Source of the DNA: Planctomycetota bacterium
GTDB taxonomy: Bacteria > Planctomycetota > Uabimicrobiia > Uabimicrobiales > JABWCH01
NCBI GenBank assembly: GCA_017993505.1
Contig: JAGOMP010000002.1
Location: forward strand, 1-64,000
Length of the DNA: 64,000 bases
Direction: 5' to 3'
In this document: one piece after another, positions 33,778 to 61,206 of the stretch
Numbering within the stretch: the first letter of the stretch is position 1
How the letters are laid out: each line of letters starts with the position of its first letter
The notes under the pieces: model-generated
Told to the model about the DNA's origin: nothing
Database searches by the model: none
What the model saw: the letters and a program-made list of their open reading frames with translations, nothing else
Translations under genes and position numbers: made by a program

Positions 33778-36144
33778 ATGCACTCTGAAACTTCTGAGCC
33801 TGAATCGATTATAAGAATTCGACATTATGAAATCAAACATGAAATTAGTCGTGGTGGTATGGGAGTTGTGTATTTAGCTGAAGATACAAAACTTGCTCGC
33901 AATGTTGCTATAAAAGTTATTTTAAACACAAAACAGACTATTTTTTATAAACGTTTTCAACGAGAAGCTATGATGTATGCAAGTTTATCTCATCCCAATA
34001 TTGTAAAAATCTACGATTTCGGCATATATCAAAATAAACCCTATATTATTATGGAGTATATCCAAGGAAAGCCCATTCTACAATATATTGAATCATTGCA
34101 ACATGGAAATTATAGAGAACATGCCAATCTCATTTCACAAATTGCCCAAGCTATACACTATATCCACCAAAAAAACATTATCCACCGTGACATTAAATCA
34201 GATAATATTCTTGTCAAAGAAGATGGTACTCCTGTATTAATAGATTTTGGCATTGCTAAAGATTTTTCTAAAGAAAAAAACCAAGCAAAATTAACACAAA
34301 CAGGCTCTCTCATAGGCTCAATCAACATAATGTCGCCAGAACAAGCACTTGGGAAAAAAGTAGACTATCGCACGGATATCTATTCTTTAGGTACTGTACT
34401 ATATCAACTTTGTACAGGTCAATATCCTTTTGATATGAGCGATGCATATTCTACATTATGTGCTATCACAACAGATCAACCTATTACACCGTCTACGATC
34501 AAACCTGACATTTCAGAATCATTGGACCAAATTATTTTACGATGCTTAGAAAAAAAACCAGAAAATAGATATAAAACTGCACAACATTTGGCAAATGATT
34601 TGAAACAATTCTTTTACAAAAAAAATACAACAAATACGTTGTATGGGCTTCAACTAAAATACAAAGCAAAAAGAAAAAAAATGCTTTTTATATTGTCGAG
34701 TTTTATTTTTATAATGTGCATAGCTGGATTATATTTTTTCCTAAAACAACTCAATATAAAACAAAAACCAGCAGTCAATCTTTCTATGATCATTCCTTGT
34801 GAAAATACATTTTCACAATTACAAACACAATTTTCTATGCACATAGACCATATACAAGAAGCTTGCCATGAACCTAGCATATACACCAATTTATTTAAAA
34901 ACATAACAGAAAGTACACAGTATAAGAATACAACAAACAACGAACGATATTTGCACAATCTGGGACAACGTCTTCAACAAACTCCTTGGGATGCTACATT
35001 ATATAAAGATAGTATGTTTTTGCTCACAGAAATGGCAAAGATGCATTTTGTAAATCATCAAGAGGAAAAAGCAAAAGAGTATCAAAAAAAAGCAGAAGAA
35101 AAATTGCGAAAATATTTTAGCATCAAGTCTTACAATAAAAAAATTTTTACTCAATTTACAGAACAATACATTTATATATTAAATAGTAGGACACTACCAA
35201 AAGATTTATATATATCGCAAGAGTTTATCAACGTAGGTATATTGTCTTTAAACAGCATTGAATTTTCAGATTTATTCCCTTATTCAGAGATTTGTAGAAC
35301 ATATTTGCAAAAAGAAAAATCAACATGGAATAAGGATAAATTTGATGTATACAAAAAAATGTTCCAAAACAAAGATAATAGTATTTTGCTACGAAATATA
35401 TTAACTCCCCTTGTATTATCTCCAGAATTTTGCAAATTGTACCAAGAAGACAAAGAAATTCGTGAACTTTTTCAACAAGAACGAGAAGAGGCTATCCAAA
35501 AACATAATATACAAAAAAACATAAAGCAATTATTGGCCCAGTATTATCTTACACGAGACACTTCGTATCTAAGCTATATTTTCACATATAACAATAAATA
35601 TATTCCCACATTGCACCATATTTTAAATCACGATCAAGAATATTTTTTCCGCTTTTTAGCAGCCTATGCACTGAGCATTTGTAAAGAAAAAGAAGCAGGA
35701 AATGCTTTAGAAAAAACTATGAAACATTGGGCTGGTAATCTAGATAGTGCTCTCTTATCGTATATTTGTGCAAAAAAAATGGATTTACAGAGAAAATATC
35801 CTAACATTCTGAATGTTGTTCCAACAAAAATAGCAGATACCACAAAATTAATATTTTTGCAATACTTCTGGGATATATTGGATAAAGATAAAATAAGGGA
35901 TAGTATGCACAAATATATTTCAACATATATACAAGATAAAAATCCAAATATTAGTTTATTATCAATGTTTTTTTTGTTAAAAACAATGAGAATTGTTCTC
36001 ATAGAGGGATTAAAAACAAATTTCCTAGAGTATAAAATAGAATATGCAAAAAAATTCAACAAGTATGGAAAACAATCAAAACATACAACGAAAAACATAT
36101 ACTTTTTTTTATCATCATTTCCAATAAATTTTCACATTTTATAA
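33778..36144 (+). CDS. Receptor Ser/Thr kinase, type A, array copy 1, 5' part (frameshifted)
   Basis: A 788-residue product as read. The cytoplasmic Hanks-type kinase is at about 17-280: glycine loop ISRGGMGVVYLAED, VAIKVIL Lys, HRDIKSDNILV, DFGIAKDF, MSPEQALG, TDIYSLGTVLYQL. The TM helix is at about 302-322 (LFILSSFIFIMCIAGLYFFL). The ectodomain then follows the array family to about residue 759 (LEYKIEYAK), where the frame breaks and unrelated residues run to the stop. The cause is a tract A7 at 36048-36054. Other copies read KNIQQ(V/I)W here, and one extra A restores KKIQQVW and joins the next open frame. The kinase half is intact, so a truncated receptor could still be made. Confidence 0.88.
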   Translation: MHSETSEPESIIRIRHYEIKHEISRGGMGVVYLAEDTKLARNVAIKVILNTKQTIFYKRFQREAMMYASLSHPNIVKIYDFGIYQNKPYIIMEYIQGKPILQYIESLQHGNYREHANLISQIAQAIHYIHQKNIIHRDIKSDNILVKEDGTPVLIDFGIAKDFSKEKNQAKLTQTGSLIGSINIMSPEQALGKKVDYRTDIYSLGTVLYQLCTGQYPFDMSDAYSTLCAITTDQPITPSTIKPDISESLDQIILRCLEKKPENRYKTAQHLANDLKQFFYKKNTTNTLYGLQLKYKAKRKKMLFILSSFIFIMCIAGLYFFLKQLNIKQKPAVNLSMIIPCENTFSQLQTQFSMHIDHIQEACHEPSIYTNLFKNITESTQYKNTTNNERYLHNLGQRLQQTPWDATLYKDSMFLLTEMAKMHFVNHQEEKAKEYQKKAEEKLRKYFSIKSYNKKIFTQFTEQYIYILNSRTLPKDLYISQEFINVGILSLNSIEFSDLFPYSEICRTYLQKEKSTWNKDKFDVYKKMFQNKDNSILLRNILTPLVLSPEFCKLYQEDKEIRELFQQEREEAIQKHNIQKNIKQLLAQYYLTRDTSYLSYIFTYNNKYIPTLHHILNHDQEYFFRFLAAYALSICKEKEAGNALEKTMKHWAGNLDSALLSYICAKKMDLQRKYPNILNVVPTKIADTTKLIFLQYFWDILDKDKIRDSMHKYISTYIQDKNPNISLLSMFFLLKTMRIVLIEGLKTNFLEYKIEYAKKFNKYGKQSKHTTKNIYFFLSSFPINFHIL

Positions 36145-36158
36145 AATTTTTCGATGCA

Positions 36159-37604
36159 ATGGATAAAAATATCATCATAGATATCCATAGTATATTAGAA
36201 CAAACTCAAAATCCTGATATCCAAGAAAATGCTTTAGAATTTTTACAACATTATTCAGAAGATGAATATGAAAATATTGCTCAAAATTGGTTACAAAAAG
36301 ACCACTTAGAGGAAAATGTAAAACTATTTTTAATCTCCTCTATAGAAAATCAACAAATAGATTTTGAATATATACTAAAAAATAAAAATATTTCTTTATA
36401 TAGTAAAATATTCCTATTGCAAGCCATAATTGAGAAAAAAATGAAATTTTTTTTCCAATTCACAAAAAATCAAGATATAAATATAGAACTAATTCTGAAA
36501 AACATACATGATATTCAAAATAATATTAAAAATTATGTTAAAAATATAGAAAATTTAATATTACACCAAGATATAGATAATAGAGAAAAACCTTTTTATA
36601 TTTATATTTTGGCAACGTTGCCCAATATTATCCCTATATATGACATAAAAAGAAAATTATTAGATTCTCCAAATGAAGTCGAGCAAAAATCTATTCTCCT
36701 TTGTCTTGGTTCCTATCCATTTTTGGGATATTGTGATAATGAATTATTTTTCATAAAACCAAAAAATAAAAAAGGAAATACAAATAACCAAGCAATGTTT
36801 CAAGAAGATATTCAAAAGAAGTTGAACACTATTTCTAGTCAAGTACAACCCTATGCTGCATATGCTTATGTTATGATGGAAACATGTGAAAAAATGGATG
36901 CATTGCCAAAACTAACATGTTTTCCTACAAAAGAACAAAAATGGGGAGCATTGTATGGATATGAAAACATTTTATATTATGATTTTCCAGATTTACCTAT
37001 ACAATGGAATTTGCAAAAAAAATATACAATGTTTTTACAACAATTGTACATGATTTTACAACAAAGTATTGGGTCTACCCGTAAAGATTGCAAACTTTCT
37101 TTCAAAGAATTTAATTCTTTGATAATTCCACCAACTAAAAAAAATCTACAAGATTTTATAGATGCTTTAACATACTCCATTCAAATAGCACCAGAAATCG
37201 CAGACATAGCACCAGAAATTGCAGGCTCTATGAATAGTATATATGATTCTATTCTATTGCAACGATATTTAGAACGAGCCCTTGTCTATCTAGTTGCTTC
37301 CCAAAAGTATAGAGACAAAGAAAAAGCAGACTATGCATTGAAAGCATTGAACGATATAAAATTAGTCATACAACACGATAAAACTACACGCATCCTTCAA
37401 AAATACTATGCCTTGATTCTTTATAATGCATTGCAATATAACATAATAGACAAAATTAAGGTACAAGAACAATTAGAATATGCAAAAATGTTGTATCCTT
37501 GGGATAAAGACATTATCCAAACATACAATAACATAGTACAAAATAAGGATACATCTTCTGAATATAAATACAAAGATATAGATTGGATTTTTCCACAATA
37601 CTAA
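36159..37604 (+). CDS. Array copy 1, 3' part of ectodomain after the frameshift
   Basis: 481 residues that are the in-family continuation of copy 1: MDKNIIIDIHSILEQTQNPDIQENALEFLQHYSED, then LPKLTCFPTKEQKWGALYGYENILYYDFPDLP, DSILLQRYLERALVYLVASQK, LEYAKMLYPWDKDIIQTYNNI and tail DIDWIFPQY. The frame is open back to the A7 tract at 36054 without a stop, and the ATG at 36159 has no clear RBS. It is unlikely to be a separate gene. Absence of other defects means the frameshift is recent, tolerated or bypassed. Confidence 0.8.
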   Translation: MDKNIIIDIHSILEQTQNPDIQENALEFLQHYSEDEYENIAQNWLQKDHLEENVKLFLISSIENQQIDFEYILKNKNISLYSKIFLLQAIIEKKMKFFFQFTKNQDINIELILKNIHDIQNNIKNYVKNIENLILHQDIDNREKPFYIYILATLPNIIPIYDIKRKLLDSPNEVEQKSILLCLGSYPFLGYCDNELFFIKPKNKKGNTNNQAMFQEDIQKKLNTISSQVQPYAAYAYVMMETCEKMDALPKLTCFPTKEQKWGALYGYENILYYDFPDLPIQWNLQKKYTMFLQQLYMILQQSIGSTRKDCKLSFKEFNSLIIPPTKKNLQDFIDALTYSIQIAPEIADIAPEIAGSMNSIYDSILLQRYLERALVYLVASQKYRDKEKADYALKALNDIKLVIQHDKTTRILQKYYALILYNALQYNIIDKIKVQEQLEYAKMLYPWDKDIIQTYNNIVQNKDTSSEYKYKDIDWIFPQY

Positions 37605-37619
37605 AAAAAGGATAAAAAC

Positions 37620-40600
37620 ATGCACTCTGAAATTTCTAAGCTTGAATCTATTACAAAAATCAAACATTATGAAATCAAAAAAGAAATTAGTCGTGGTGGA
37701 ATGGGAGTAGTGTATTTAGCAGAAGATACAAAACTTTCTCGAAATGTTGCTATAAAAATTATTTTAAGTACAAGTCAGGCCATTTATTATAAACGTTTTC
37801 AACGAGAAGCAATGATATATGCGAGTTTATCTCACCCCAATATTGTAAAAATCTATGATGTTGGCATATATAAAAATAAGCCCTATATTATTATGGAATA
37901 CATCCAAGGCAAACCCATTCTTCAATATATTAAAGAACAGCAACATGTTGATTATAGGGAACATGCCAATCTCCTTTCACAAATTGCCCAAGCTGTACAT
38001 TATATCCATAAAAAAAACATTATCCACCGTGACATTAAATCAGATAATATTCTTGTCAAAGAAAATGGTACACCTGTGTTAATAGATTTTGGCATTGCCA
38101 GAGATTGTTCTAAAACAACTTTCCAAGAAAAATTAACACAAACAGGTTCTCTCTTAGGTACAGTCAACATCATGTCTCCAGAACAAGCACTTGGGGATAA
38201 AATAGATTATCGCACTGATATATATTCTTTAGGCACTGTATTGTATCAACTTTGTACTGGTCAATATCCTTTTGACATGAGTGATACATATTCTACGTTA
38301 TGTGCTATCACAACAGACCAACCTATTACACCTTCTACGTTCAAACCTGACATCCCAAAATCATTAGACCAAATCATTTTGCGATGCTTAGAAAAAAAAC
38401 CAGAAAATAGATATAAAACTGCACAACATCTAGCAAATGATTTAAAACAATTCTTTTACAAAAAAGATACAACAAATACGTTGTATGGTCTTCAATTAAA
38501 ATACAAAACAAAAAGAAAAAAAATGTTTTTTATATTGTCGAGTTTTATTTTTATAATGTGCATAGCTGGATTATATTTTTTTCTAAAACAAATCGATACA
38601 CCCCCCAAAACAACAGTCGATCTTTCTATGATCATTCCTTGGGAAAATACATTCTCACAATTACAAACACAATTTTCTATGCACAAAGACAATATACAAG
38701 AAGCATGCCACGAACCTAGCATATACACCAATTTATTTAAAAACATAACAGAAAGTACACAGTATGAGAATACAAAAAACAATGAACGATATTTACATAA
38801 TCTGGAACAACGTCTCCAACAAACGCCTTGGGATGCTACATTGTATAAAGATAGTATGTTTTTGCTCACAGAAATAGCAAAGATGCATTTTGAAAATCAT
38901 GAAAATGCAAAAGCAAAAGAATACCAAAAAAAAGCAGAAGAAAAATTGCGAAAATATTTTAGCATCCAGCCTTATGATAAAAAAATCTTTACTAAATTTG
39001 CAGAATCGTACATGTATATATTAGATAGTAGTACACTGCCAAGAAATTTATATATATCGCAAGAGCTTATTAACGCAAGTATGTTATCTCTGGATAGCAT
39101 TGAATTTTCAGATTTATTTCCTTATAAAGAAATTTGTACAACGTATCTTAAAAAAGAAAAATCAACATGGAATAAAGATAAATTTGATGTATGTAAAAAA
39201 TTATTCCACAACAAAGCCCATAATATTTTGCTACAAAAAATATTAATCCCCCTTTTATTATCTCCAGAATTTTGCAAATTGTATCAAGAAGACAAAGAAA
39301 TTCGCCAACTTTTTCAACAAGAACGAGAACAAGCCATTCAGAATCAAGATATACAAAAGCCCATAAAGCAATTATTAGCACAATATTATCTTACACGAGA
39401 CACATCATATTTAAGCTATATTTTCACATATACTCCTAAATATATTTCCACATTGCACCATATTTTAAATCAAGATCAAGAATATTTTTTCCGCTTTTTA
39501 GCAGCCTATGCACTTAGCATCTGTAAAGAAGAAAAAGCAAGAAACGCTTTAAAGGAAACCATAGAAAATAGAATCAATAATCTAGATAGTGCTCTCTTAT
39601 CGTATATTTGTGCAGAAAAAATGGATTTAAAAATAGAATATCCTGACTTTCTGAATGTTGTTCCTACAGAAATAGCATACACTACAAAATTAATATTTTT
39701 GCAATACCTCTTAGATATATCAAATAAAGATAAAATAAGAGATAGTATGCACAAATATATTTCAACATATATACAAGATAAAAATCCAAATATTAGTTTA
39801 TTGGCAATATATTTTATGTTAAAAACAATGAAAACAATTCCCAAAGAAGAATTAAACACAAATTTCCTAGAGTACAAAATAAAATATAAAAAAAATATTC
39901 AACAAGTATGGAAAATAATCAAAACACACAACGAAAAACATATACTTCTTTTTATCATCCTTGCCAATAAATTTTCTGATGTTATAAAATTGCTCGATGC
40001 AATGGACAAAAATGTAATCATAGATATATATAGTATACTAGAACAAACTCAAAATCTTGCTATCCAAGAAAATGCTTTAAAATTTTTACAACATTATTCT
40101 GAAGACAAGTATGAAAATATTGCTCGAACTTGGGTACAAAAAGAGTATTTAGATGAAAGTGTAAAATTATTTTTAACCTTTTCTATAGATAATAATCAAA
40201 ACGATCTCCTAAATATATTAAAAGATAAAAATATCTTTTTATTTAGTAAAATATTATTCATACAATCTATGATTATAGAAAAAATAAAATTTTTTCACCA
40301 AGCTAAACACCCTAACAATCAAGGATTCGTTCTACTAGGCACTCTTATATCTTATATCAAAATGATAGATGAATTCATATTTAAAAAAAATATAGACAAC
40401 AAATCAAAACCTTTTTTTGTCTATATTTTAGCAGCATTACCAAATGTTAGCATGTTACTTGATATAAAAAGAAAATTGTTAAATTCTAAGAATGAAATAG
40501 ATCAATCGTCTTTCCTCCTTGGTCTTGGTTCCCTTCCATTTTTTGGACAGCATAATGGTAGCACATCTTTCCTAAAAACAACAAAAAAACTGGGGAAGGT

Positions 40601-41453
40601 GAAAAAGAAACTGGGAAGAACAAATAATCAAGCAATGTTTCAAGAAGATATCAAAAATAAGTTGAAAACTGCATCGAAGAGAATACAACCCTATGTAGCA
40701 TATGCTCATGTTATGATGGAATCATATGAAAAAATGGAAGCATTGCCAAAACTAACATGTTTTTCTACAAAAGAACAAAAATGGGGAGCATTTTATGGAT
40801 ATAAAAACATTTTATATTATGATTTTCCAGATTTACCTCTACAATGGAATTTGCAAAAAAAATATGAAAAATTTTTACAACAATTGTATATGATTTTACA
40901 AAAAAGTGTAGGAATTACCCTTGAAGATTATCGAGTTTCTACCAAAGCACTTTATTCTTTTCCAATTCAACAAACTAAAAAAAATCTACAGAATTTTATA
41001 GATGCTTTGACGTACTCCATTCAAATAGCACCAGAAATCGCAGACATAGCTCCAGAAATTGCAGGCTCTATGAATAGTATCTATGATTCTGTTTTATTGC
41101 AACGATATTTAGAACGAGCCATTGTCTATCTAGTTGCTTCCCAAAAGTATAGAGACAAAGAAAAAGCAGACTATGCATTGAACGATATAGAATTTGTCAT
41201 ACAACACGATAAAACTACACGAATCCTTCAAAAATATTATGCCTTGATTCTTTATAATGCATTGCAATATAAAGAAGAAAACAAAGATATAGATAAAAAA
41301 GTAGACAAAGATAAGGTAAAAGAACAATTAGAATATGCAAAAATATTGTATCCCTGGGATGAAGACATTATCCAAGCATACAATAACATAGAAAAAAGGA
41401 AGAACATATCCCCAGAATATAAAGATATAGATTGGATTTTCCCACAATACTAA
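37620..41453 (+). CDS. Receptor Ser/Thr protein kinase, type A, array copy 2
   Basis: 1277 residues. Kinase: glycine loop at 24-32, Lys46, HRD with Asp138, DFG 156-158, SPEQ 186-189. A basic stretch KTKRKK and a TM helix follow at about 302-322. The outer part of about 950 residues is helical, with TPR/HEAT-like character, and carries the array boxes LEQRLQQTPWDATLYK, EYFFRFLAAYALSICKE, KLTCFSTKEQKWGAFYGYKNILYYDFPDLP and YLERAIVYLVASQK, ending DIDWIFPQY. By analogy with PrkC/PASTA-type receptors it would sense something outside the membrane and phosphorylate cytoplasmic targets; the ligand is unknown. GGATAAAAAC leader. The kinase-coding 854 bp is identical to copy 5. Confidence 0.92.
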   Translation: MHSEISKLESITKIKHYEIKKEISRGGMGVVYLAEDTKLSRNVAIKIILSTSQAIYYKRFQREAMIYASLSHPNIVKIYDVGIYKNKPYIIMEYIQGKPILQYIKEQQHVDYREHANLLSQIAQAVHYIHKKNIIHRDIKSDNILVKENGTPVLIDFGIARDCSKTTFQEKLTQTGSLLGTVNIMSPEQALGDKIDYRTDIYSLGTVLYQLCTGQYPFDMSDTYSTLCAITTDQPITPSTFKPDIPKSLDQIILRCLEKKPENRYKTAQHLANDLKQFFYKKDTTNTLYGLQLKYKTKRKKMFFILSSFIFIMCIAGLYFFLKQIDTPPKTTVDLSMIIPWENTFSQLQTQFSMHKDNIQEACHEPSIYTNLFKNITESTQYENTKNNERYLHNLEQRLQQTPWDATLYKDSMFLLTEIAKMHFENHENAKAKEYQKKAEEKLRKYFSIQPYDKKIFTKFAESYMYILDSSTLPRNLYISQELINASMLSLDSIEFSDLFPYKEICTTYLKKEKSTWNKDKFDVCKKLFHNKAHNILLQKILIPLLLSPEFCKLYQEDKEIRQLFQQEREQAIQNQDIQKPIKQLLAQYYLTRDTSYLSYIFTYTPKYISTLHHILNQDQEYFFRFLAAYALSICKEEKARNALKETIENRINNLDSALLSYICAEKMDLKIEYPDFLNVVPTEIAYTTKLIFLQYLLDISNKDKIRDSMHKYISTYIQDKNPNISLLAIYFMLKTMKTIPKEELNTNFLEYKIKYKKNIQQVWKIIKTHNEKHILLFIILANKFSDVIKLLDAMDKNVIIDIYSILEQTQNLAIQENALKFLQHYSEDKYENIARTWVQKEYLDESVKLFLTFSIDNNQNDLLNILKDKNIFLFSKILFIQSMIIEKIKFFHQAKHPNNQGFVLLGTLISYIKMIDEFIFKKNIDNKSKPFFVYILAALPNVSMLLDIKRKLLNSKNEIDQSSFLLGLGSLPFFGQHNGSTSFLKTTKKLGKVKKKLGRTNNQAMFQEDIKNKLKTASKRIQPYVAYAHVMMESYEKMEALPKLTCFSTKEQKWGAFYGYKNILYYDFPDLPLQWNLQKKYEKFLQQLYMILQKSVGITLEDYRVSTKALYSFPIQQTKKNLQNFIDALTYSIQIAPEIADIAPEIAGSMNSIYDSVLLQRYLERAIVYLVASQKYRDKEKADYALNDIEFVIQHDKTTRILQKYYALILYNALQYKEENKDIDKKVDKDKVKEQLEYAKILYPWDEDIIQAYNNIEKRKNISPEYKDIDWIFPQY
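37626..38479 (+). repeat. 854-bp block identical to 49420-50273 (kinase copies 2 and 5)
   Basis: By eye I find no difference between this block and 49420-50273, from the third codon to residue about 286. Differences begin at both ends at once (cac/gat codons upstream, g/a at 38480 against 50274). Ectodomains of the two genes differ much more, so this looks like recent gene conversion of the kinase module. Confidence 0.8.
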
Positions 41454-41513
41454 AATATAAAAATGCATCCTATGAATATAAAAATATAGATTGGATTTTC
41501 CCACAGTACTAAA
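41454..41513 (+). pseudogene. Orphan copy of the array 3' tail (scar) before copy 3
   Basis: Between copies 2 and 3 a second tail in the same style encodes YEYKNIDWIFPQY and a stop, directly after copy 2's own stop. It is the kind of footprint left by unequal crossover or tandem duplication between neighbouring genes. Confidence 0.7.
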
Positions 41514-41528
41514 AAAGCGAGAAAAACC

Positions 41529-44500
41529 ATGCAATTTACTGGATTAGAAAATGTACAACAAATTGACCAATATATTTTAAAAAAAGAAATTAGTCGCGGT
41601 GGCATGGGAGTTGTGTATTTAGCTGAAGATACACAACTCCATCGTCCTACAGCATTAAAAGTCATTTTAAAACAATCAGAATATAGTCGTACCATTGGTA
41701 TCAAACGATTTCGTAGAGAAATGGAAGTCATGGGGAAATTGCACCACCCATATGTTATTCAGATTTATACAGCTGGTGTATTTCAAAATAACCCATATAT
41801 TGCTATGGAATATGTGGATGGAGTCCCTCTTTTAGAATATACTCAACAATTACCAGAAAACGATTTTATTTCTATAGCAACATTAATACAAAAAATTTTA
41901 CAAGCTTTTTCCTACATTCACTCAAAACAAATTATACATAGAGATGTAAAATCTACGAATATACTTGTCCGACCCAATGGTGACCCTGTTGTATTAGATT
42001 TTGGAATTTCTAAAGCAAAAGACGTAAAAACATTAACTGCTACTGGTACCATTATTGGTTCTTTAAACATGGCACCTGAACAAGCCAAAGGGCTGACTCG
42101 AAATTTAAACCAACAATCAGATATTTATTCTATAGGAACACTTTTATATGAAATCTTAACAAAACAACCTGTTGTGCAAGCTAATTCCTTTATGGAATTA
42201 TTACAAAAAATCATCTCTGAAGACCCTATTCTCCCTTCTCAATGGAATCCTTCTATTCCTCCTATGTTGGAATATATCACATTAAAATCTTTAGAAAAAA
42301 AGCAACAAAAACGATATGCTACTGCCTCATTGATGGAAAAAGATTTGAAAAAATTTTTACAAAATAAAGATCAGCAAAAACCTTCCTTATATTTATATAA
42401 AAAACAATATAAAAAGCATTTTCAAAAAATAATAATTTTGAGTCTCTGTCTAGTACTTATCTTATTAGGATATTTGCACTTCCCATCTTTTCAAAAAAAA
42501 CAAAAAAAAACAGTAGATGTTTCTATGATTATTTCTTGGGAAACTACACTTTCTCAATTACAATTACAATGTTCTATGCATATAAACCATATACAAGAAA
42601 AATGCCATGATCCTAGTGTATACACAGATTTATTTAAAAACATGACAGAAACGACACAATATAAAAATATCAAAAACAATGGACGATATTTACACAATCT
42701 GGAACAACGTCTTCAACAAACTCCTTGGGATGCTACATTATATAAAGAAAGTACGTTTTTACTCACAGAAATGGCAAAGATGCATTTTGAAAATCATCAA
42801 GAGGAAAAAGCAAAAAAGTATCAAAAACAAGCAGAAGAAAAATTGCGAAAATATTTTACTATCCAACCTTACAATAAGAAGATCTTTACTAAATTTGCTG
42901 AACCGTACATGTATATAATAGGTAATAGTACGTTAAAAGAAGATTTACATATATCACAAAAGTTTATTAATACAAGTATATTATCTTGGGGAAATATTGA
43001 ATGGTCAGATCTATTCCCTTATACAGATATTTGTACAACGTACCTTCAAAAAGAAAAATCAACATGGAATAAGGATAAATTTGATATATACAAAAAAATG
43101 TTCCAAAACAAAGACAATAATATTTTGCTACAAAAAATATTGACTTCCCTTGTATTGACACCAGAATTTTGCAAATTATACCAAGAAGACAAAGAAATTC
43201 GTGAACTTTTTCAACAAGAACGAGAACAGGCTATCCAAAATCATGATATACTAAAACCCATAAAACAATTATTGGCACAATATTATCTTACACGAGACTC
43301 CTCTTATTTAAGTTATATTTTCACATATACTCATAAATATATTCCCACATTGCACCATATTTTAGACCAAGATGAGGAATATTTTTTCCGCTTTTTAGCA
43401 GCCTATGTTCTTAGCATTTGTAAAGAAAAAGAAGCAGAAAACGCTTTAGAAAAAACTATGGAAAACTGGATAGATAATCTAGATAGTGCTCTCTTATCCT
43501 ATATTTGTGCAAAAAAAATGGATTTGCAAATGAAATATCCTAACTTTCTGAATGTTGTTCCAACAGAAATCGCAGACACCACAAAATTAATATTTTTGCA
43601 ATACATCTTAGATATATTAGATAAAGATAAAACAGGTGATAGTATGCAAAAATATATTCAAAAATATATGCAAGATGAAAATCTCAATATTGTTTTATTG
43701 TCTATGTATTTCATGTTAAAAACAATAGATCAAAAGTATCAAAGCGAATTAAAAATAAGCTTCCAAGAGCTACAAAAAGAATATGGAAAAAATATTCAAC
43801 AAATATGGAGAACAATCAAAACACAAGATAAAAAACATATTCTTATTTTTTTTAACATTGCCAATAAATTTTCCAATGTTATAAAATCAATCCATGCAAT
43901 GGGAAAGAATATAATTAAAGACATACAGACTATACTAGAACAAACGCAAAATCCTGATATACAAGAAAATGCTTTAAAATTTTTACAACATTATTCTGCA
44001 AATGAATATGAAAATATTTCTAAAACTTGGTTAAAAAAAGAGTACTTAGAGGAAAATGTAAAACTATTTTTAATCTCCTCTATAGAAAATCAACAAATAG
44101 ATTTTGAATATATATTAAAAAGTAAAGATATTTCTTTATATAGTAAAATGTTATTATTACACGCCATATTTAAAACAAAAGATAAAAGTGTTTTCCAATT
44201 ATTCATACAAGATAAAAATATAGAACTTATTCTAGGAACAATAAACGATCTTTTAAAGGATATTAACAAGATAGAAGATCTAATATTGGAGCAAGATATA
44301 GACAATAGAGCAAAACCTTTTTATATTTATTGTTTAGCAATGTATCCTAATGTTTCCCCTATATATAATGTAAAAATAAAGTTGTTAGATTCTCCAAATG
44401 AAGTGGTTCAAAAAGCTATTCTTCTTAGTCTTGGTTCTTATCCATATTTGGGACATTATTATAATGCTGGGATATCTATCCTAAATCCAAAGAAAAAACA

Positions 44501-45401: not shown

Positions 45402-45416
45402 AAAGCGAGAAAAACC

Positions 45417-52400: not shown

Positions 52401-53298
52401 TATCCTAAAACCAAAGAAGAAACAGAGAAAAAAAGAGGAAATAAAGAAAAAACAAAACGCAACAAATAATCAAGCAATGTTTCAAGAAGATATTCAAGAT
52501 AAATTAAACACTGTTTCTAAGACAATACAACCATATACAGCATATGCTCATGTTATGATGGAATCATATGAAAAAATGGATGCATTACCAAAACTAACAT
52601 GTTTTCCTACAAAAGAACAAAAATGGGGGGCATTTTATGGATATGAAAACATTTTATATTATGATTTCCCAGAATTACCTATACAATGGAATTTGCAAAA
52701 AAAATATGATAAGTTTTTACAACAACTATATATGATTTTACAGCAGAATATTGGGTCTACCCATGAAGATTGCAAACTCTATCCAAAAGAATTTCATTTT
52801 TTTCCAATTCCACCAACTCCAAAACATATACAAAATTTTATAGATGTTTTGACATATTCAATCCAAATCGCACCAGAAATCAAAGACATAGCACCAGAAA
52901 TCGCAGGCTCTATGAATAGTATCTATGATTCTATTCTATTACAACGATATTTAGAACGAGCCATTGTCTATCTAGTTGCTTCTAAAAAAGACAACAATAA
53001 AGATAAAGCAGACTATGCATTGAAAGCACTGAACGACATAGAATTAGTCATACAACACGATAAAACTACACGCATCCTTCAAAAATACTATGCTTTAATT
53101 TTACATAATGCATTGCAATATAAAGATATAGACAAAAAAATAAACAAAGATAAGGTACAAGAACAATTAGAATATGCAAAAATGTTGTATCCTTGGGATG
53201 AAGATATTATGCAAGCATATAATAACATAGGCCAAAGTAAAGACATATCTTCTGAATATAAATCTAAAGATATAGATTGGATTTTCCCACAATACTAA
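49414..53298 (+). CDS. Receptor Ser/Thr protein kinase, type A, array copy 5
   Basis: 1294 residues. The kinase, residues 3-286, is identical to copy 2. Then come QYKAKRRK and a TM helix (about 303-323, IFILSSFIFIMCMAGSYFFL). The ectodomain is its own mosaic: the middle (LLAYYYLTRDTEYLSYIF) is like copies 4 and 6, and the 3' part (SANEYENIAKTWLKKDHLEENVKLF, KKKQRKKEEIKKKQ) is like copy 3. It ends SKDIDWIFPQY. The leader (aaaaaagcgagaaaaat) is of the type B kind although the coding start is type A, which places one exchange point at the start codon. Confidence 0.92.
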   Translation: MDSEISKLESITKIKHYEIKKEISRGGMGVVYLAEDTKLSRNVAIKIILSTSQAIYYKRFQREAMIYASLSHPNIVKIYDVGIYKNKPYIIMEYIQGKPILQYIKEQQHVDYREHANLLSQIAQAVHYIHKKNIIHRDIKSDNILVKENGTPVLIDFGIARDCSKTTFQEKLTQTGSLLGTVNIMSPEQALGDKIDYRTDIYSLGTVLYQLCTGQYPFDMSDTYSTLCAITTDQPITPSTFKPDIPKSLDQIILRCLEKKPENRYKTAQHLANDLKQFFYKKDTTNTLYGLQLQYKAKRRKTIFILSSFIFIMCMAGSYFFLQQLNILQKTTEDLSMIIACENTLSQLQLQFSMHIDYIQEACHEPSIYTNLFKNITKSTQYENTKNNERYLHNLEQRLEQTPWDATLYKDSMVFFTEMAKVHFENHETEKAKEYQKQAEKKLRIYFSIQSFNQKIFTQFAEQYLDILNSSTIQEDLYVSQEFINVAMLSSDILELSDLFPYANICTTYLQKEKSTWNKDKFDVCKKIFQDKASKHNILLQNILTPLLLAPEFCKLYQEDKDIRELFQQKREQAIQHHDIQTPIKQLLAYYYLTRDTEYLSYIFTYTNKYIPTLHDILNQDEEYFFRFLAAYVLSICKEKEAKDDLEKIIKNWIDNIDSAILSYVCAKKMDLQIEYPNFLNIVPTNIADTTNFIFLQYVLEIADKDKIKDVIDEYIPIYLQDKNPNIILLALYCILRIMVSEDARKLQINTPEQKKEYKKQTKEYARKIQQIWKTIKTHEEKHILFFIILANKFSDVIKQIHAMDKNIIKDIHSILEQTQNPDIQENALKFLQHYSANEYENIAKTWLKKDHLEENVKLFLISSIKNQPIDFEYILKSKDISLYSKILLLYTIFKTKEKNVSQLFIQDKNIDLILGTMNDFLKDINKIEDLILKKDIDNRTKPFYIYIMVMLPNVSPIYNVKIKLLYSPNEVDQKAILLSLGSYPYLGHIYNAGISILKPKKKQRKKEEIKKKQNATNNQAMFQEDIQDKLNTVSKTIQPYTAYAHVMMESYEKMDALPKLTCFPTKEQKWGAFYGYENILYYDFPELPIQWNLQKKYDKFLQQLYMILQQNIGSTHEDCKLYPKEFHFFPIPPTPKHIQNFIDVLTYSIQIAPEIKDIAPEIAGSMNSIYDSILLQRYLERAIVYLVASKKDNNKDKADYALKALNDIELVIQHDKTTRILQKYYALILHNALQYKDIDKKINKDKVQEQLEYAKMLYPWDEDIMQAYNNIGQSKDISSEYKSKDIDWIFPQY

Positions 53299-53346
53299 AA
53301 CATAAAAACGCATCTAAAGATATAGATTGGATTTTCCCACAATACT
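53299..53346 (+). pseudogene. Orphan copy of the array 3' tail (scar) before copy 6
   Basis: Directly after copy 5's stop, a second fragment encodes SKDIDWIFPQY and a stop. Its 5' flank (acataaaaacgcatc) resembles the flank of the scar before copy 3 (atataaaaatgcatc), suggesting a common rearrangement process. Confidence 0.7.
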
Positions 53347-53365
53347 AAAAAAAGCGAGAAAAACC

Positions 53366-56300
53366 ATGCAATTTACTGGATTAGAAAATGTACAACAGAT
53401 CGATCAATATATTTTAAAAAAAGAAATCAGTCGTGGCGGAATGGGAGTTGTATATTTAGCAGAAGATATACAGCTCCATCGTCCCACTGCATTAAAAGTC
53501 ATTTTAAAACAATCAGAAAACGATAGCACCATTAGTATCAAACGATTTCATAGAGAAATGGAAGTCATGGGGAAATTAAGCCATCCATATGTTATTCAGA
53601 TTTATACGGCTGGTATGTTTCAAAACAATCCATATATTGCTATGGAATATGTAGATGGCATCCCTCTTTTAGAATATACTCAACAACTACCAGAAAACGA
53701 TTTTATTTCTATTGCAACATTAATGCAAAAAATCCTACAAGCTTTTTCCTACATTCACTCCAAACAATTAGTGCATAGAGATGTAAAATCTACAAATATA
53801 CTTGTCCGCTCCAATGGAGACCCTGTTATATTGGATTTTGGACTTACTAAAGCAAAAGATATAAAAACATTAACTGCTACTGGTACCATTATTGGTTCTT
53901 TAAACATGTCACCTGAACAAGCCAAAGGAATGACTAGAAATGTAAACCACCAATCAGACATTTATTCTTTAGGAACACTTTTATATGAAATCTTAACAAA
54001 ACAACCTATTGTACAAGCTAACTCCTTTATGGAATTAATAAAAAAAATCATCTCTGAAGACCCTATTCTCCCTTCTCAATGGAATCCTTCTATTCCGCCT
54101 ATGTTAGATTACATTACATTAAAATCTTTAGAAAAACAACAACAAAAACGATATGCTTCTGCCTTATTAATGGAAAAAGATTTGATAAAATTTTTACAAA
54201 ATACAAATCTGAAAAAACCTTCCTTATATTTATATAAAAAACAATATAAAAAATATTTTCAAAAAATAATAATTTTGAATCTTTGTTTAATATTAATTCT
54301 ATTAGGATATTTTTACTTTCCATCTTTTCAAAATAAACAAAAAACAACAATGGATGTTTCTATGATGATTTCTTTGGAAAATACACTTTCCCAATTACAA
54401 ACACAATTTTCTATACATATAGAACATATACAAGAAGCATGCCATGATCCTATCGTATACACAAATTTATTTAAAAATATAACAGAAAGTACACAATATA
54501 AGAATATAAAAAATAATGAACGATATTTGCACAATCTGGAACAACGTCTCCAACAAACGCCTTGGGATGCTACATTATATAAAGATAGTACACTTTTGCT
54601 CACAGAAATGGCAAAAATGCATTTTGAAAATCATGAAACAGAAAAAGCAAAAGAGTACCAAAAAAAAGCAGAAAAAAAATTGCGTACATATTTTAGTATC
54701 CAACCTTACAATCGAAAAATCTTTACTCAATTTGCAGAATCGTACATTTATATATTAGATAGTAATACGATAAAAGAAGATTTATACGTATCGCAAGAAT
54801 TTTTCAATGTAAGTATATTATCTTTAGAAATCTTTGGATTATCAAATTTATTTCCTTATTTAGATATTTGTAGAACGTACCTACAAAAAGAAAAATCAAC
54901 ATGGAATAAGGATAAATTTAACTTATATAAAGAATCATTCCAAAAGAAAACCCACAATATTTTACTACGAAATATATTAACGCCCCTTGTATTATCTCCA
55001 GAATTTTGCAAATTGTACCAAGAAGACAAAGAAATTCGTGAACTTTTTCAACAAGAACGAGAACAAGCTATACAAAATCATGATATACAAAAGCCCATAA
55101 AACAATTATTAGCGTATTATTATCTTACACGAGACACAGAGTATTTAAGCTATATTTTCACATATACTAATAAATATATTCCTACATTGCATTATATTTT
55201 AAATCAAGATGAAGAATATTTTTTCCGCTTTTTAGCAGCCTATGTTCTTAGTATTTGTAAAGAAGAACAAGGCAAGGATGAACAAGGCAAAGATGAACAA
55301 GGCAAGGATGAACAAGGCAAGGATGAACAAGGCAAAGATGAACAAGGCAAAGATGAACAAGGCAAGGATGAACAAGGCAAGGATGAACAAATAAAAGATG
55401 CAAAAGACGCTTTAGAGAAAACTATGAGAAACTGGGTAGATAATATAGATAGTGCTCTCTTATCATATATTTGTGCAAAAAAAATAGATTTACAGATAGA
55501 ATATCCTGATTTTCTATATGATATTCCATCAAACATCACAGACACTACAAAATTAATATTTTTGCAATATCTTTTAAGTATGTCGAATAAAAATAAAGCT
55601 GAGGACATTATCTATAAATATGTTCCACAATATTTGCAAGATGAAAATCCAAATATTGTTTTATTGGCAATGTATTGCATATTAAGAACAATGGTGCCAA
55701 AGGATGCAAAGGAAATACAAATAAGTACACCAGACCAAAAAAAAGGATATGCAAAAACAATTCAACAAATATGGGAAATAGTCAAAACACAAGAAGAAAA
55801 ACACATCCTTCTTTTTTTAAGTATTTCCAATAAATTTTCCAATTTCATAAAACTGAACGATGCAATGGAAAAAAATATAATCACAGATATATATCATATA
55901 TTAAACAAAACTCAAAATCCTGATATTCAAGAAAATGCTTTAAAATTCTTACAACATTATTCTGAGTATGAATATGAAAACATTGCCAAAACTTGGTTAC
56001 AGAAAGATCACTTAGAGGAAAGCATACAATTATTTTTAATCTCTTCTATAGAGAACAATCTAGATGCTCTTATGAATATTTTACTAAATAAAAAGATTTC
56101 TTTATTTAGTAAAATATTTCTATTAAAATCTATGATTGAATCAAAAGCAAAAAGTATTCTTGCTGAAAGTGAACAATATAAGAATATAGAATTTATTATA
56201 AAAATAATAAACGATATTGTAAATTATACTAAAATGATAAAAAAATTAATATGGCACCAAAATATAGACAATAAATCAAAACCTTTTTATGTTTATCTTT

Positions 56301-57415
56301 TAATAGTATTACCCAATATTCCCCCTGTATATGACATAAAAACAGAGTTGTTATATTCTGAGAATGAAGAGGATCAAAAACCTATTCTTCTTAGTCTTGG
56401 TTCTTATCCATTTTTAGGATATTATAATAAACCTCTATCTTATATGAAAATAAAGAAGAAACCGAGGAAGGTGAAAAAAGAGGAGAGCAAAAAGAACCAA
56501 GAAGAAACAAATAATAAAGCAATGTTTCAAGAAGATATTCAAAACAAGTTAAAAATTGTTTCTAAGACAGTACAGCCATATGTAGCATATGCTTATGTTA
56601 TGATGGAATCATATTTAGAAATAGATCAATTACCAAAACCAGAATGTTTTACTACAAAAGAACAAAAATGGGGGGCATTTTATGGATATGAAAAAATTTT
56701 ATATTATGATTTTCCAGAATTACCTATGCAATGGAATTTACAAAAAAAATATGAAATGTTTTTAGAACAATTGTATATAATTCTACAACAAAGTGTAGGC
56801 TCTACTCATAAAGATTGTAAAATTTTTCCACGAGAATTTAATTCTTTTAAAATTCAAGCAACTCCAAAAAATCTACAAAATTTCATAGATATTTTAACCT
56901 ATATCATTCAAATAGCTCCAGAAATCGCAGACATAGCACCAGAAATCGCCAGTTCTATGAATAGTATCTATGATTCTATTCTATTGCAACGATATTTAGA
57001 ACGAGCCCTTGTCTATCTAGTTACTTCAAAAAAAGAAAAAAACAAAGAAAAAGCAATCCTAGCATTAAAGGATATAGAATTTGTAATACAACACGACAAA
57101 ACTACACGAATCCTTCAAAAATACTATGCCTTGATTCTTTATAATATGTTGCAATATAAAGATATAGACAAAGAAGAAAAAAATAAAGAAATAGACAAAG
57201 CTAAGGTAAAAGAACAATTAGAATATGCAAAAATGTTGTATCCTTGGGATGAAGACATTATCCAAGCATACAATGATATAGAAAAAAATAACGATATAGA
57301 ACATACTAATAACATAGAAAAAAATAATAACATAGAAAAAAATAATAACATAGAAAAAAATAATGATACATCCTCAAAATATAAAGATATAGATTGGATT
57401 TTTCCACAATACTAA
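53366..57415 (+). CDS. Receptor Ser/Thr protein kinase, type B, array copy 6
   Basis: The start at 53366 (MQFTGLEN) is chosen with the leader GCGAGAAAAACC; a frame-open ATG at 53327 lies in the preceding scar. 1349 residues. The kinase motifs are intact, with DFGLTKAKD as a slightly unusual DFG+1/+2. TM about 300-318. The ectodomain has the family boxes and two low-complexity inserts. One is eight EQGKD units right after FFRFLAAYVLSICKE; the other is an EKNNNI-type repeat just before the DIDWIFPQY tail. The middle part pairs with copy 4. Confidence 0.92.
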   Translation: MQFTGLENVQQIDQYILKKEISRGGMGVVYLAEDIQLHRPTALKVILKQSENDSTISIKRFHREMEVMGKLSHPYVIQIYTAGMFQNNPYIAMEYVDGIPLLEYTQQLPENDFISIATLMQKILQAFSYIHSKQLVHRDVKSTNILVRSNGDPVILDFGLTKAKDIKTLTATGTIIGSLNMSPEQAKGMTRNVNHQSDIYSLGTLLYEILTKQPIVQANSFMELIKKIISEDPILPSQWNPSIPPMLDYITLKSLEKQQQKRYASALLMEKDLIKFLQNTNLKKPSLYLYKKQYKKYFQKIIILNLCLILILLGYFYFPSFQNKQKTTMDVSMMISLENTLSQLQTQFSIHIEHIQEACHDPIVYTNLFKNITESTQYKNIKNNERYLHNLEQRLQQTPWDATLYKDSTLLLTEMAKMHFENHETEKAKEYQKKAEKKLRTYFSIQPYNRKIFTQFAESYIYILDSNTIKEDLYVSQEFFNVSILSLEIFGLSNLFPYLDICRTYLQKEKSTWNKDKFNLYKESFQKKTHNILLRNILTPLVLSPEFCKLYQEDKEIRELFQQEREQAIQNHDIQKPIKQLLAYYYLTRDTEYLSYIFTYTNKYIPTLHYILNQDEEYFFRFLAAYVLSICKEEQGKDEQGKDEQGKDEQGKDEQGKDEQGKDEQGKDEQGKDEQIKDAKDALEKTMRNWVDNIDSALLSYICAKKIDLQIEYPDFLYDIPSNITDTTKLIFLQYLLSMSNKNKAEDIIYKYVPQYLQDENPNIVLLAMYCILRTMVPKDAKEIQISTPDQKKGYAKTIQQIWEIVKTQEEKHILLFLSISNKFSNFIKLNDAMEKNIITDIYHILNKTQNPDIQENALKFLQHYSEYEYENIAKTWLQKDHLEESIQLFLISSIENNLDALMNILLNKKISLFSKIFLLKSMIESKAKSILAESEQYKNIEFIIKIINDIVNYTKMIKKLIWHQNIDNKSKPFYVYLLIVLPNIPPVYDIKTELLYSENEEDQKPILLSLGSYPFLGYYNKPLSYMKIKKKPRKVKKEESKKNQEETNNKAMFQEDIQNKLKIVSKTVQPYVAYAYVMMESYLEIDQLPKPECFTTKEQKWGAFYGYEKILYYDFPELPMQWNLQKKYEMFLEQLYIILQQSVGSTHKDCKIFPREFNSFKIQATPKNLQNFIDILTYIIQIAPEIADIAPEIASSMNSIYDSILLQRYLERALVYLVTSKKEKNKEKAILALKDIEFVIQHDKTTRILQKYYALILYNMLQYKDIDKEEKNKEIDKAKVKEQLEYAKMLYPWDEDIIQAYNDIEKNNDIEHTNNIEKNNNIEKNNNIEKNNDTSSKYKDIDWIFPQY
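55265..55384 (+). repeat. Eight 15-bp in-frame repeats (EQGKD) in copy 6
   Basis: Eight units gaacaaggcaa(g/a)gat sit after the conserved LSICKE helix; a ninth, diverged unit (EQIKD) follows. All other copies lack it. G/A variation alternates, so part of the tract grew in blocks of more than one unit. Confidence 0.95.
57311..57364 (+). repeat. Three perfect 18-bp repeats near the end of copy 6
   Basis: Units aacatagaaaaaaataat at 57311-57328, 57329-57346 and 57347-57364 encode NIEKNN. Each contains an A7 tract that keeps its frame, unlike the A7 tracts in the two frameshifted genes. Confidence 0.92.
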
Positions 57416-57432
57416 AAAAAGCGAGAAAAACC

Positions 57433-60400
57433 ATGCAATTTACTGGATTAGAAAATGTACAACAGATCGACCAATATATTTTAAAAAAAGAAATCAGTCG
57501 TGGCGGAATGGGAGTTGTGTATTTAGCTGAAGATATACAACTCCATCGTCCCACTGCATTAAAAGTCATTTTAAAACAATCAGAAAACGATAGCACCATT
57601 GGTATCAAACGATTTCATAGAGAAATGGAAGTCATGGGAAAATTGAGCCATCCATATGTTATTCAGATTTATACAGCTGGTATGTTTCAAAACAATCCAT
57701 ATATTGCTATGGAATATGTAGATGGCGTCCCTCTTTTAGAATATGCTCAACAATTACCAGAAAACGATTTTATTTCTATTGCAAAATTAATGCAAAAAAT
57801 TTTACAAGCTTTTTCCTATATTCACTCCAAACAATTAGTTCATAGAGATGTAAAATCTACAAATATACTTGTCCGTCCCAATGGTGCCCCTGTTGTATTA
57901 GATTTTGGAATTGCTAAAGCAAAAGATACAAAAACATTGACTGCTACTGGTACCATTATTGGTTCTTTAAACATGGCACCAGAACAAGCAAGAGGAATGA
58001 CTAGAAATGTAAACCACCAATCAGATATTTATTCTATAGGAACACTTTTATATGAAATTTTAACAAAACAACCTATTGTGCAAGCTAACTCCTTCATGGA
58101 ATTAATAAAAAAAATCATCTTTGAAGACCCTATTCTTCCTTCGCAATGGAATCCTTCTATTCCTCCTATGTTAGAATACATTACATTAAAATCTTTAGAA
58201 AAAAAACAACAAAAACGATATACTTCTGCCTCCTTGATGGAAAAAGATATCATTAAATTTTTACAAAATACAAATAGAAAAGACCATACATTTTATTTAT
58301 ATAAAAAACAATATAAAAAACATTTTCAAAAAATACAAATTTTCAGTCTCTGTTTAATATTCATCCTATTAGGATATTTTTACTTTTTATTTTTTCCAAG
58401 TCAACAAAGTCAACCAAAAAAAATATTCCCAGAACAACAAAATGTTCTTCTATGGGAATCAAAAATTCATAATCTTCAATACCAATTTCAAACAAAATGG
58501 CAAGAATACCAAGAATATCTAGAAAATAAAAGCACATATTGTCCATTATTCCATGCACTGGCAAAAGCTGTAGATTATAAAAACATAGAAAAAAATAAAC
58601 AATACCAAACTTCTTTAGATGAATTGATACAACAAAAACCTTGGCAAGAATATTTATATTTTGAAAACGCATCGATTTTAACAATATTGTCTCACCAATA
58701 TTTACAATTGCAAGATATTGAAAATCGAAAAAAATACCAAAAAAAAGCAGAAACAAATATACGAACCTATTTAAAAATCCATCCATATGACTATAAAAGC
58801 ATTGCTAAATTTCTTGAATTGTCGCTATACAAAGACAACATAGAACTTTTACAAACTATGGATAAGTTGTACAACATTATACAAGTATCTTTAGTTAGTA
58901 ATATAGTAGAAACAAAAGATTTATTTTACTTTCAGGAAGAATGCCACTCGTATTTAAATACACAACATACATTTCAATGGAATCAAAAAATTTTTGAATC
59001 ATTATTTTATCAATATATTGCTTGCCCCAATGATATTTTAGAAACTCTTCTTATGCCTTTTTTCTTAACTCCAGAATTCCCTGATAAAATGATGTATTTT
59101 TCACTCAAAATTCCCTTAAGGCAAGAAAAAGAACTTCAACAATTTATAGAATTGCGACAAAAAATTGTACAAAAAACAGATATTTCCAAACAAATTAAAA
59201 TTTTACTAGCAGAATACTTTATTACAAAAGATATAAAACATCTATCAAAGATTTTTGCATACCAAAATAAAGCAATTACCACCCTACAGAACATTTTTTT
59301 ACAAGACCAAAATATATTTTTTCGTTTTTTAGCAGCATATACTTTATTTATTATGTGCCAAGAAGATACAGATTACATTTTAACAAAAACCATACAAAAT
59401 TATCAAAACAATCAAGATAGTGCTTTACTTGCCTTAATCTTTTTTGCAAAAACAAAAAAAATGTCGCAAAAAGATATCTATTTCTATTTGAATGCTATGA
59501 TTCCCCATCAAAATCTAGATATCAAAACAAAAGCTCTTTTTTTACAATATATCCCAAGAAGTTATTTAAAATACATTCAAATGTATTTATATCAACAAGA
59601 TATTCGTATTGTTTTATTGGCTTTGCAACGAATGTTAATCCTTTCTTTAGACCTAGAAGCAAAAATAAACAAAGTAAAGATGTATACAGTAGCTTTTGCT
59701 AAAAAAGAAAAAAATCCCTTAGAAGGCTATATACAAGATCAATGTTTTATTGTTTTAAAAGAAAAACTCTATCCTATTTTAAAAACAAAAAATACAGATC
59801 AACTCATTCTATGTTTTAACCTTATTCAACAATTGAAACTAGACCAACAAAAACAAATCTACCAAATATGGGAAAAAGAAATCCATCAAATGATTTTAAC
59901 ACATTCTAATTCTATGTTAAAATACATTTTATTAAATGTAACGCAATCATTTTTAGAAAAAAATAAATATCACACATTAGCCAATATTATATTGCAACAA
60001 GAAAATATTGATGATAATCTCCAAGTCTTTCTTCTTTCCACAATTTATGATTTTAATCAAGTAATAGACTTACTATTCTTATCTAATTTGCAACCCTATA
60101 CAAAACTTTTATTATTATTTCAAATTCAAGATCAAATATTCTTAAGATATGGTTCTTTTAAAGAAAATATGCCACGTATGATCAAAGTATTTAATGCCTT
60201 ACAAACAATAGAAAAAAATCAAAATTTAGAGCCTTATTTTAAAACATTTACAACATATATCAGCTCTAATGCTTTAAATATAGGAGAGATTGAACCATGG
60301 AAGGTAAAAATGCTGCATTCTCCAGATCAATCTTGCCAAATAGGAATGATTCTAGGTCTTTCCTCTTTTTTAACAGAGGAAAGTATCAAAGTGGGTCAAA

Positions 60401-61206
60401 AGCCTATACAACAACTTTTTAAAACAGCAAACGATGAAATACAACCCTATATTTCCTATGCTAGCATTATTTTTGAATCTTTTCAAAGCATTACTAATAT
60501 ACCTACGCCAGACGTTTTTAAAACAACATCACAACGCTTAGGTGCATCGTATGGATATGGAAAAGTTCTCTATTATGATTTTCCGTACTATGTCCCAGAT
60601 TGGATAGAGGAAGATCAATATGAAACAGTTATAGACCTCTTATATCATGTATTGTGCAATATTCTAGACATGAAAAAAAGAAAATTCATTCGCCAACAAA
60701 GTCATCCTATGCCTACAGAAAAAAATATAGAGGACTATATAAAAATTATCAATTATGCCATATCTGTTGCAAATCCTATACAAGAAAATGCAACTCTTAA
60801 AGACTCTATCACCCTACAATATCACTTAGAACGTGCTATTATATACTTGATTGCTTCACAAAAAGAAAGAAATATACCACAAAAAAAATTATATGCAAAA
60901 CAATCCTTTGACGACATCAATCTTGTTATAAAATACGACAATACAACACAAATTTTATACAAATACCATGCTATGATTTTAGCCAATTTGACCATGTATG
61001 AACCATCTCAAAAATTCAATGCACAAAAAAAGTTGCAATACGCATTTACCTTAAAACCATGGGACTATGAACTTTGTAAAGTATATGCAAATTTTGCAAG
61101 AGAATATAGATTACCAGAAGCAGAAAAAATAGGTCTTCAATATGGTCACAAAGTCAAAAACAAACACACGACATTAGACCCTGACTGGATTTTTACTATG
61201 GATTAA
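57433..61206 (+). CDS. Receptor Ser/Thr protein kinase, type B, array copy 7, diverged ectodomain
   Basis: 1257 residues from the ATG at 57433; an upstream in-frame ATG at 57394 lies inside copy 6. The kinase and TM (about 1-320) are very close to copies 4 and 6 (HRDVKSTNILV, DFGIAKAKDTKTLTATGTIIGSLNMAPEQARG). The ectodomain from about residue 328 has the same order of elements but low similarity: QQKPWQEYLYFENASIL for the TPWDATLYK box, FFRFLAAYTLFIMCQED, RLGASYGYGKVLYYDFPYYVPDW, YHLERAIIYLIASQKE, LKPWDYELCKVYANF, and tail LDPDWIFTMD. It is probably the ancestral outer edge of the array or a distinct receptor that received a type B kinase. A terminator follows. Confidence 0.92.
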   Translation: MQFTGLENVQQIDQYILKKEISRGGMGVVYLAEDIQLHRPTALKVILKQSENDSTIGIKRFHREMEVMGKLSHPYVIQIYTAGMFQNNPYIAMEYVDGVPLLEYAQQLPENDFISIAKLMQKILQAFSYIHSKQLVHRDVKSTNILVRPNGAPVVLDFGIAKAKDTKTLTATGTIIGSLNMAPEQARGMTRNVNHQSDIYSIGTLLYEILTKQPIVQANSFMELIKKIIFEDPILPSQWNPSIPPMLEYITLKSLEKKQQKRYTSASLMEKDIIKFLQNTNRKDHTFYLYKKQYKKHFQKIQIFSLCLIFILLGYFYFLFFPSQQSQPKKIFPEQQNVLLWESKIHNLQYQFQTKWQEYQEYLENKSTYCPLFHALAKAVDYKNIEKNKQYQTSLDELIQQKPWQEYLYFENASILTILSHQYLQLQDIENRKKYQKKAETNIRTYLKIHPYDYKSIAKFLELSLYKDNIELLQTMDKLYNIIQVSLVSNIVETKDLFYFQEECHSYLNTQHTFQWNQKIFESLFYQYIACPNDILETLLMPFFLTPEFPDKMMYFSLKIPLRQEKELQQFIELRQKIVQKTDISKQIKILLAEYFITKDIKHLSKIFAYQNKAITTLQNIFLQDQNIFFRFLAAYTLFIMCQEDTDYILTKTIQNYQNNQDSALLALIFFAKTKKMSQKDIYFYLNAMIPHQNLDIKTKALFLQYIPRSYLKYIQMYLYQQDIRIVLLALQRMLILSLDLEAKINKVKMYTVAFAKKEKNPLEGYIQDQCFIVLKEKLYPILKTKNTDQLILCFNLIQQLKLDQQKQIYQIWEKEIHQMILTHSNSMLKYILLNVTQSFLEKNKYHTLANIILQQENIDDNLQVFLLSTIYDFNQVIDLLFLSNLQPYTKLLLLFQIQDQIFLRYGSFKENMPRMIKVFNALQTIEKNQNLEPYFKTFTTYISSNALNIGEIEPWKVKMLHSPDQSCQIGMILGLSSFLTEESIKVGQKPIQQLFKTANDEIQPYISYASIIFESFQSITNIPTPDVFKTTSQRLGASYGYGKVLYYDFPYYVPDWIEEDQYETVIDLLYHVLCNILDMKKRKFIRQQSHPMPTEKNIEDYIKIINYAISVANPIQENATLKDSITLQYHLERAIIYLIASQKERNIPQKKLYAKQSFDDINLVIKYDNTTQILYKYHAMILANLTMYEPSQKFNAQKKLQYAFTLKPWDYELCKVYANFAREYRLPEAEKIGLQYGHKVKNKHTTLDPDWIFTMD

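Follow-up and report, generated by a model that had tools for sequence, protein, structure and literature searches.

A mosaic tandem array of seven giant receptor kinase genes with predicted TPR-HEAT-TPR ectodomains in a genome of Ca. Uabimicrobiales

The window, the whole stretch of 64,000 nucleotides analysed here, carries seven head-to-tail Ser/Thr receptor kinase genes on the same strand (R1-R7, called as ORFs at 33778-61206; Table 1), which encode single-pass proteins of about 1260-1350 aa with ectodomains of about 930-1030 residues. Counted from the ATG starts, the intergenic gaps from R1 to R7 are 15, 75, 15, 16, 67, and 17 bases, and an alternative TTG start of R7 at 57394 would overlap R6. 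The seven tandem one-pass receptor kinases, 15-75 bases apart, that a preliminary description had reported here are thus borne out with exact coordinates, except that R1 is split. DNA identity between the copies is 80-97% over most of about 3.9 kb, far above chance. In R1, a one-base shift within an A-rich stretch near 36053 breaks the reading frame, leaving 6/7 copies intact; the constraint in both R1 halves resembles that in the other copies, so the break is either recent or a sequencing error. Scans of the array for sigma-70 promoters and terminators give results at or below chance level, so the operon structure is read from the gene spacing only. The host assembly (3.08 Mb, 86% complete) has 132 Pkinase hits, and inspection of their list reveals no other run of adjacent kinases nearly as long. 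In addition, in-frame short tandem repeats occur in the ectodomains of R6 and R4, and because the main repeat units are multiples of three, the length could vary without breaking the gene. Two adjacent TMEM43-family genes lie directly upstream of the array, and the second of them matches just the C-terminal part of the family.

Table 1. Coordinates of the array genes and of other features in the window
Feature	Position	Strand	Description
hsdM and five hsdS-like genes	16270-22010	-	hsdM, then the hsdS-like genes
CysS	13128-14549	+	cysteinyl-tRNA synthetase
TMEM43-family genes	31980-33572	+	two adjacent genes
R1	33778..37604	+	type I kinase, type A ectodomain; Pkinase E 6.6e-51
R1 ORFs	33778-36144, 36159-37604	+	788 aa and 481 aa, split by one-base frameshift
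R2	37620..41453	+	1277 aa; type I kinase at 17-272, TM 304-322, type A ectodomain
R2 tract identical to R5	37626-38479		854 bases
R2 glycine-loop coding stretch	37677-37735		
R3	41529..45401	+	1290 aa; type II kinase, TM 301-319, type A ectodomain
R4	45417..49397	+	1326 aa; type II kinase, type A ectodomain
R4 insert	48965-49103 (approx.)	+	in-frame, Asn/Lys/Asp-rich low complexity
R5	49414..53298	+	1294 aa; type I kinase, type A ectodomain with R3-like variable stretch
R6	53366..57415	+	1349 aa from ATG; type II kinase, type A ectodomain; TTG start at 53327 possible
R6 repeat	55265-55390	+	in-frame 15-base unit, EQGKD, 8.4 copies, inside ectodomain
R6 second repeat	57267-57368		in-frame short tandem repeat
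R7	57433..61206	+	1257 aa from ATG; type II kinase, divergent type B ectodomain

A Pkinase domain is found in all seven copies (Pfam), and the VAIK/ALK lysine, HRDxKxxN, DFG, and xPEQ motifs, which make up the motif set of an active Hanks-type Ser/Thr kinase, are present in 7/7 copies, each with a TxTG-like activation loop. By motif inspection the kinases therefore appear catalytically intact throughout, in agreement with the preliminary description. Each copy has one strong hydrophobic segment at about residues 300-322, with a Lys/Arg-rich run before it on the kinase side; from hydropathy and charge, the ectodomain should lie in the periplasm and the kinase in the cytoplasm. The kinases fall into two classes, class I in R1, R2, and R5 and class II in R3, R4, R6, and R7, with identities of 85-100% within a class and 46-49% between classes. 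The activation loops differ between the two classes, which suggests two outputs. In the tree, the type II kinases group with another kinase of the same genome (C74), as separate origins of the two classes would predict, but a tree constrained to unite the two classes is also compatible with the data (p 0.42). The glycine-loop coding stretch of R2 is 84-92% identical in DNA to that of the type II copies, compared to about 50-65% elsewhere between the classes, perhaps reflecting an older exchange or strong constraint. A second tandem kinase duplication is seen at L111 (G000:C44:16000-33000), where kinase ORFs of 492 aa and 1054 aa have near-identical kinase parts and the ORF that follows the 492-aa kinase carries repeats about 59-76% identical to the 1054-aa kinase; this pair looks like a frameshifted duplicate.

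Searches of the array proteins with Pfam and NCBIfam identify the kinase only and no ectodomain family above cut-off; HEAT_2 reaches 12-19 bits in the array copies against a Pfam cut-off of 27.7, and TPR also scores below its cut-off. A PDB sequence search with the ectodomain profile gives nothing (a single match at E 0.52), a pattern scan using the ectodomain finds no relative among the named genomes, and BLAST-level matches to the ectodomain within its own genome are limited to the array. Profile A3, built from array sequences only, shows weak, collinear matches to giant proteins from the same family and order. L100 (G001), which is truncated at a contig end, matches A3 in two ordered stretches (E 1.7e-10); L099 (G004, 1697 aa) is a kinase-TM protein with HEAT and TPR repeats above the Pfam cut-off, and L102 (G002, 1590 aa) is a kinase-TM protein with HEAT repeats above it. 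Profile-profile alignment shows a 'WN/D-x-K ... RFLAA' region common to the array and its relatives, and a GY..LYY...W...Y..F-like signature after the HEAT core is common to the array, L100, and L099 and looser in L102. An independent test is provided by profile A6, built from L100 and L099 with no array sequence, which recovers copies of the array (E from 1.5e-7 to 2e-4) as well as a dispersed kinase of the same genome, C17 (E 3.9e-10). Kinases in 6/6 genomes of the order align with the joint profile A5 along almost all of it (2-536), and five further family members all combine a kinase with HEAT repeats, 4/5 of them also with many TPR repeats (Pfam).

By profile, the array fits the definition of this family: an N-terminal Pkinase, one TM, a TPR-HEAT-TPR region, and the W..Y..F signature after the HEAT core. 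Because the profiles link the ectodomain to kinase-TPR-HEAT-TPR relatives, we read it as a diverged TPR-HEAT-TPR solenoid. An AlphaFold2 model of the ectodomain, made with the window sequences only as input, is all-helical at low confidence (pLDDT 54), as the preliminary description had predicted, and a Foldseek search with the whole model returns alpha-solenoids (importins and transportins) with low TM-scores; both agree with the solenoid reading. The same search with the C-terminal ectodomain part finds nothing significant, mostly 14-3-3 proteins at E about 0.1-0.5. The homologues and the low-confidence model together indicate that the ectodomain is a fast-diverging TPR-HEAT-TPR solenoid of a giant kinase family represented in 6/6 genomes of the order, so that it can no longer be called unknown.

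The seven genes are mosaics of these parts. Two ectodomain types are present, type A in R1-R6 and type B in R7. The ectodomains of R1-R6 are about 68-78% identical among themselves, whatever kinase they carry, and that of R7, which sits on a type II kinase, is only 32-36% identical to type A (32-39% in its outer parts). The kinase tree separates classes I and II with 100/100 support and rejects {R3,R5} (AU p = 1e-50), whereas the tree of the variable ectodomain unites R3 and R5 with 100/100 support and rejects {R1,R2,R5} (AU p = 3e-4); the variable ectodomain stretch of R3 is closest to that of R5, and the switch between the conflicting histories falls at the membrane helix. R2 and R5 share 854 identical bases from ORF base 7 to codon 286, which is almost exactly the kinase, and differ immediately outside the tract on both sides, while no other exact match between two copies exceeds 113 bases. 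The leader of R5 resembles that of the type II genes. Such a tract is what conversion of the kinase segment, or its exchange as a cassette, would be expected to leave, and we read it as recent gene conversion limited to that segment. An 854-base repeat exceeds short reads, making mis-assembly possible; the array is known from one MAG, of a genus represented by one genome, and the R1 frameshift and the long identical tract could partly be assembly or base-call artefacts. The proposal that diversity sits outside the membrane is supported for the variable ectodomain stretch and unsupported as stated: the kinases form two classes 47% identical, the R1-R6 ectodomains are alike, and the kinase and ectodomain trees conflict.

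Within the ectodomain, amino-acid change is uneven. Between copies, dS is about 0.2-0.4; it stays near 0.3-0.4 across the parts compared and is even along the ectodomain; the pooled omega is 0.19 for the type II kinases, 0.33 for the N-terminal ectodomain, 0.24 for the first HEAT part, 0.71 for residues ~690-1000, and 0.38 for the C-terminal ectodomain. Fast change is thus confined to one part of the HEAT solenoid (~690-1000) and would reflect either diversifying or relaxed selection. Two windows reach omega values of 1.26 and 1.19 with intervals that include 1; positive selection is not established, and since no window lies significantly above omega 1, relaxed constraint is inseparable from diversifying selection. 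The same result fits an ordinary tandem amplification, perhaps a transient one, that raises the gene dosage of a scaffold or housekeeping kinase; conversion and decay would then be neutral by-products of unequal crossing-over, and the array would have no repertoire function. The broken R1 and the microsatellite-like inserts are in line with such an amplification, and identities of about 80-90% plus one converted tract are what unequal crossing-over and gene conversion would produce. However, six copies are still intact and under constraint (kinase omega 0.19) despite dS of 0.2-0.4, fast change is localised against an even dS along the ectodomain, and the array has retained both of its well separated kinase classes and both ectodomain classes, so we regard neutral amplification as rather unlikely. 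The localised fast evolution could instead belong to a repertoire for recognising the surfaces of prey, host, or kin, each copy being tuned to a different partner, and the type B ectodomain of R7, the in-frame differences in repeat length, and the presence of an engulfing predator among the relatives (PMC6906331, PMC11032199) point in the same direction. Most of the variation, however, lies in one stretch, the R1-R6 ectodomains being otherwise about 80% identical, and the evidence comes from a single genome; we consider this explanation very improbable.

The distribution of the family was evaluated with A5 on a phylum sample of 294 genomes. All six genomes of the order match, and the 288 genomes outside it give one weak match, to a 256-aa non-kinase ORF. 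The TPR-HEAT-TPR profile accordingly defines a kinase family that appears restricted to the order at present sampling (6 vs 288 other genomes). Members of the family are widely separated in the relatives, and no relative that was searched has the seven-gene mosaic array; the count and order of copies that the preliminary description had proposed to compare thus reveal dispersed members and no array, so the array is a local expansion. One genome of the order (G005) contains about 650 kinase candidates and has about 38-39% GC in the stretches read. In the tree, a supported clade (100/99) unites the HEAT-core kinases from G003, G004, and G005.

TPR and HEAT repeats typically act as scaffolds for protein-protein contacts, and homologues occur widely, at dispersed sites, across the order, as might be expected if the solenoids served in the envelope as scaffolds for the assembly of cell-wall, secretion, or motility complexes; the kinase would then report the assembly state and not an outside ligand. 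By itself, such a role leaves the tandem expansion with kinase-module exchange unexplained, and we judge it unlikely. The reading that we favour, and hold to be probable, is that one family of giant receptor Ser/Thr kinases of Ca. Uabimicrobiales has expanded in tandem in this lineage, with copies that recombine and so have their outer and inner modules reassorted. Each protein would have its PknB-like kinase in the cytoplasm, a single membrane helix, and, in the periplasm, a large TPR-HEAT-TPR alpha-solenoid that binds protein or peptide partners there. By analogy with PknB-type kinases, a ligand on the solenoid would cluster the receptors, and the clustered kinases would phosphorylate each other in trans on the activation loop and then their targets. 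The two kinase modules may feed two outputs, and recombination among copies may create new input-output pairings. Prey-derived material would be a plausible input, given that the array host is a relative of a bacterium-engulfing bacterium. The further step, a receptor repertoire whose solenoid inputs and kinase outputs are actively reassorted in the tandem array as a combinatorial wiring of outside signals to two phosphorylation outputs, is put forward only tentatively. The locus displays a concrete route to large kinase repertoires, namely tandem duplication together with exchange of whole kinase modules at a near-constant membrane-helix junction. It also offers a natural swap set on which the wiring is testable: one ectodomain type occurs with two different kinases, and one kinase with two different ectodomain types.

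We compared the array with known systems. The nearest is that of Ca. Uabimicrobium amorphum, which presumably belongs to the same order as the array host, though to another family, and for which the available text of Odelgard et al. (2024; PMC11032199) describes single-pass kinases with periplasmic TPR/WD40 arrays that have undergone a lineage-specific expansion; the claim that no bacterial system of this layout has been described was therefore too strong. As predicted for the array proteins, the kinases in that text have an N-terminal cytoplasmic kinase, one TM, and a C-terminal periplasmic repeat solenoid, and the origin of the Ca. Uabimicrobium repertoires is given there as 'duplication and/or recombination'. 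A HEAT core family, tandem arrays of giant kinases, kinase-module exchange, and gene conversion are features of the array that the available text does not describe, and it reports no well supported cross-species clades of like architecture, unlike the HEAT-core clade of the three genomes above. The tandem Ser/Thr kinase duplications of myxobacteria and other bacteria (Perez et al. 2008, as cited in the available text of PMC11032199) likewise involve adjacent paralogues and recent duplication, but we found no description there of a run of seven genes or of module exchange. The array also resembles the PknB/Stk1 PASTA kinases (NF033483) in its kinase domain (E down to 1e-93), single TM, and predicted outside C-terminus, but it has no PASTA domains and carries an alpha-solenoid of about 950 residues instead; NF033483 matches only the kinase part, with scores of 256-315, all below the family cut-off of 450. 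In the tandem receptor-like-kinase clusters of plants (Arabidopsis; PMC3136440, available text), the copies exchange segments as well, but the ectodomains are not homologous and the domain order is opposite, so the likeness is an analogy only. As far as the literature was searched, the order-wide HEAT-core family, the seven-copy array, and the kinase-module exchange are new.

Two further loci of the window lie apart from the array. In the cluster of hsdM and five hsdS-like genes, two of the latter have two target-recognition domains and three are half-size; the hsdS-like genes share direct repeats of about 69-85% identity, there are no inverted repeats among them, and no hsdR is seen in the window. 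The cluster is a possible reservoir of specificity genes. The best matches of the cysteinyl-tRNA synthetase, at 51-59%, are scattered over many phyla, with Ignavibacteria and Patescibacteria among them, and the gene is therefore uninformative as a taxonomic marker; it was possibly acquired sideways.
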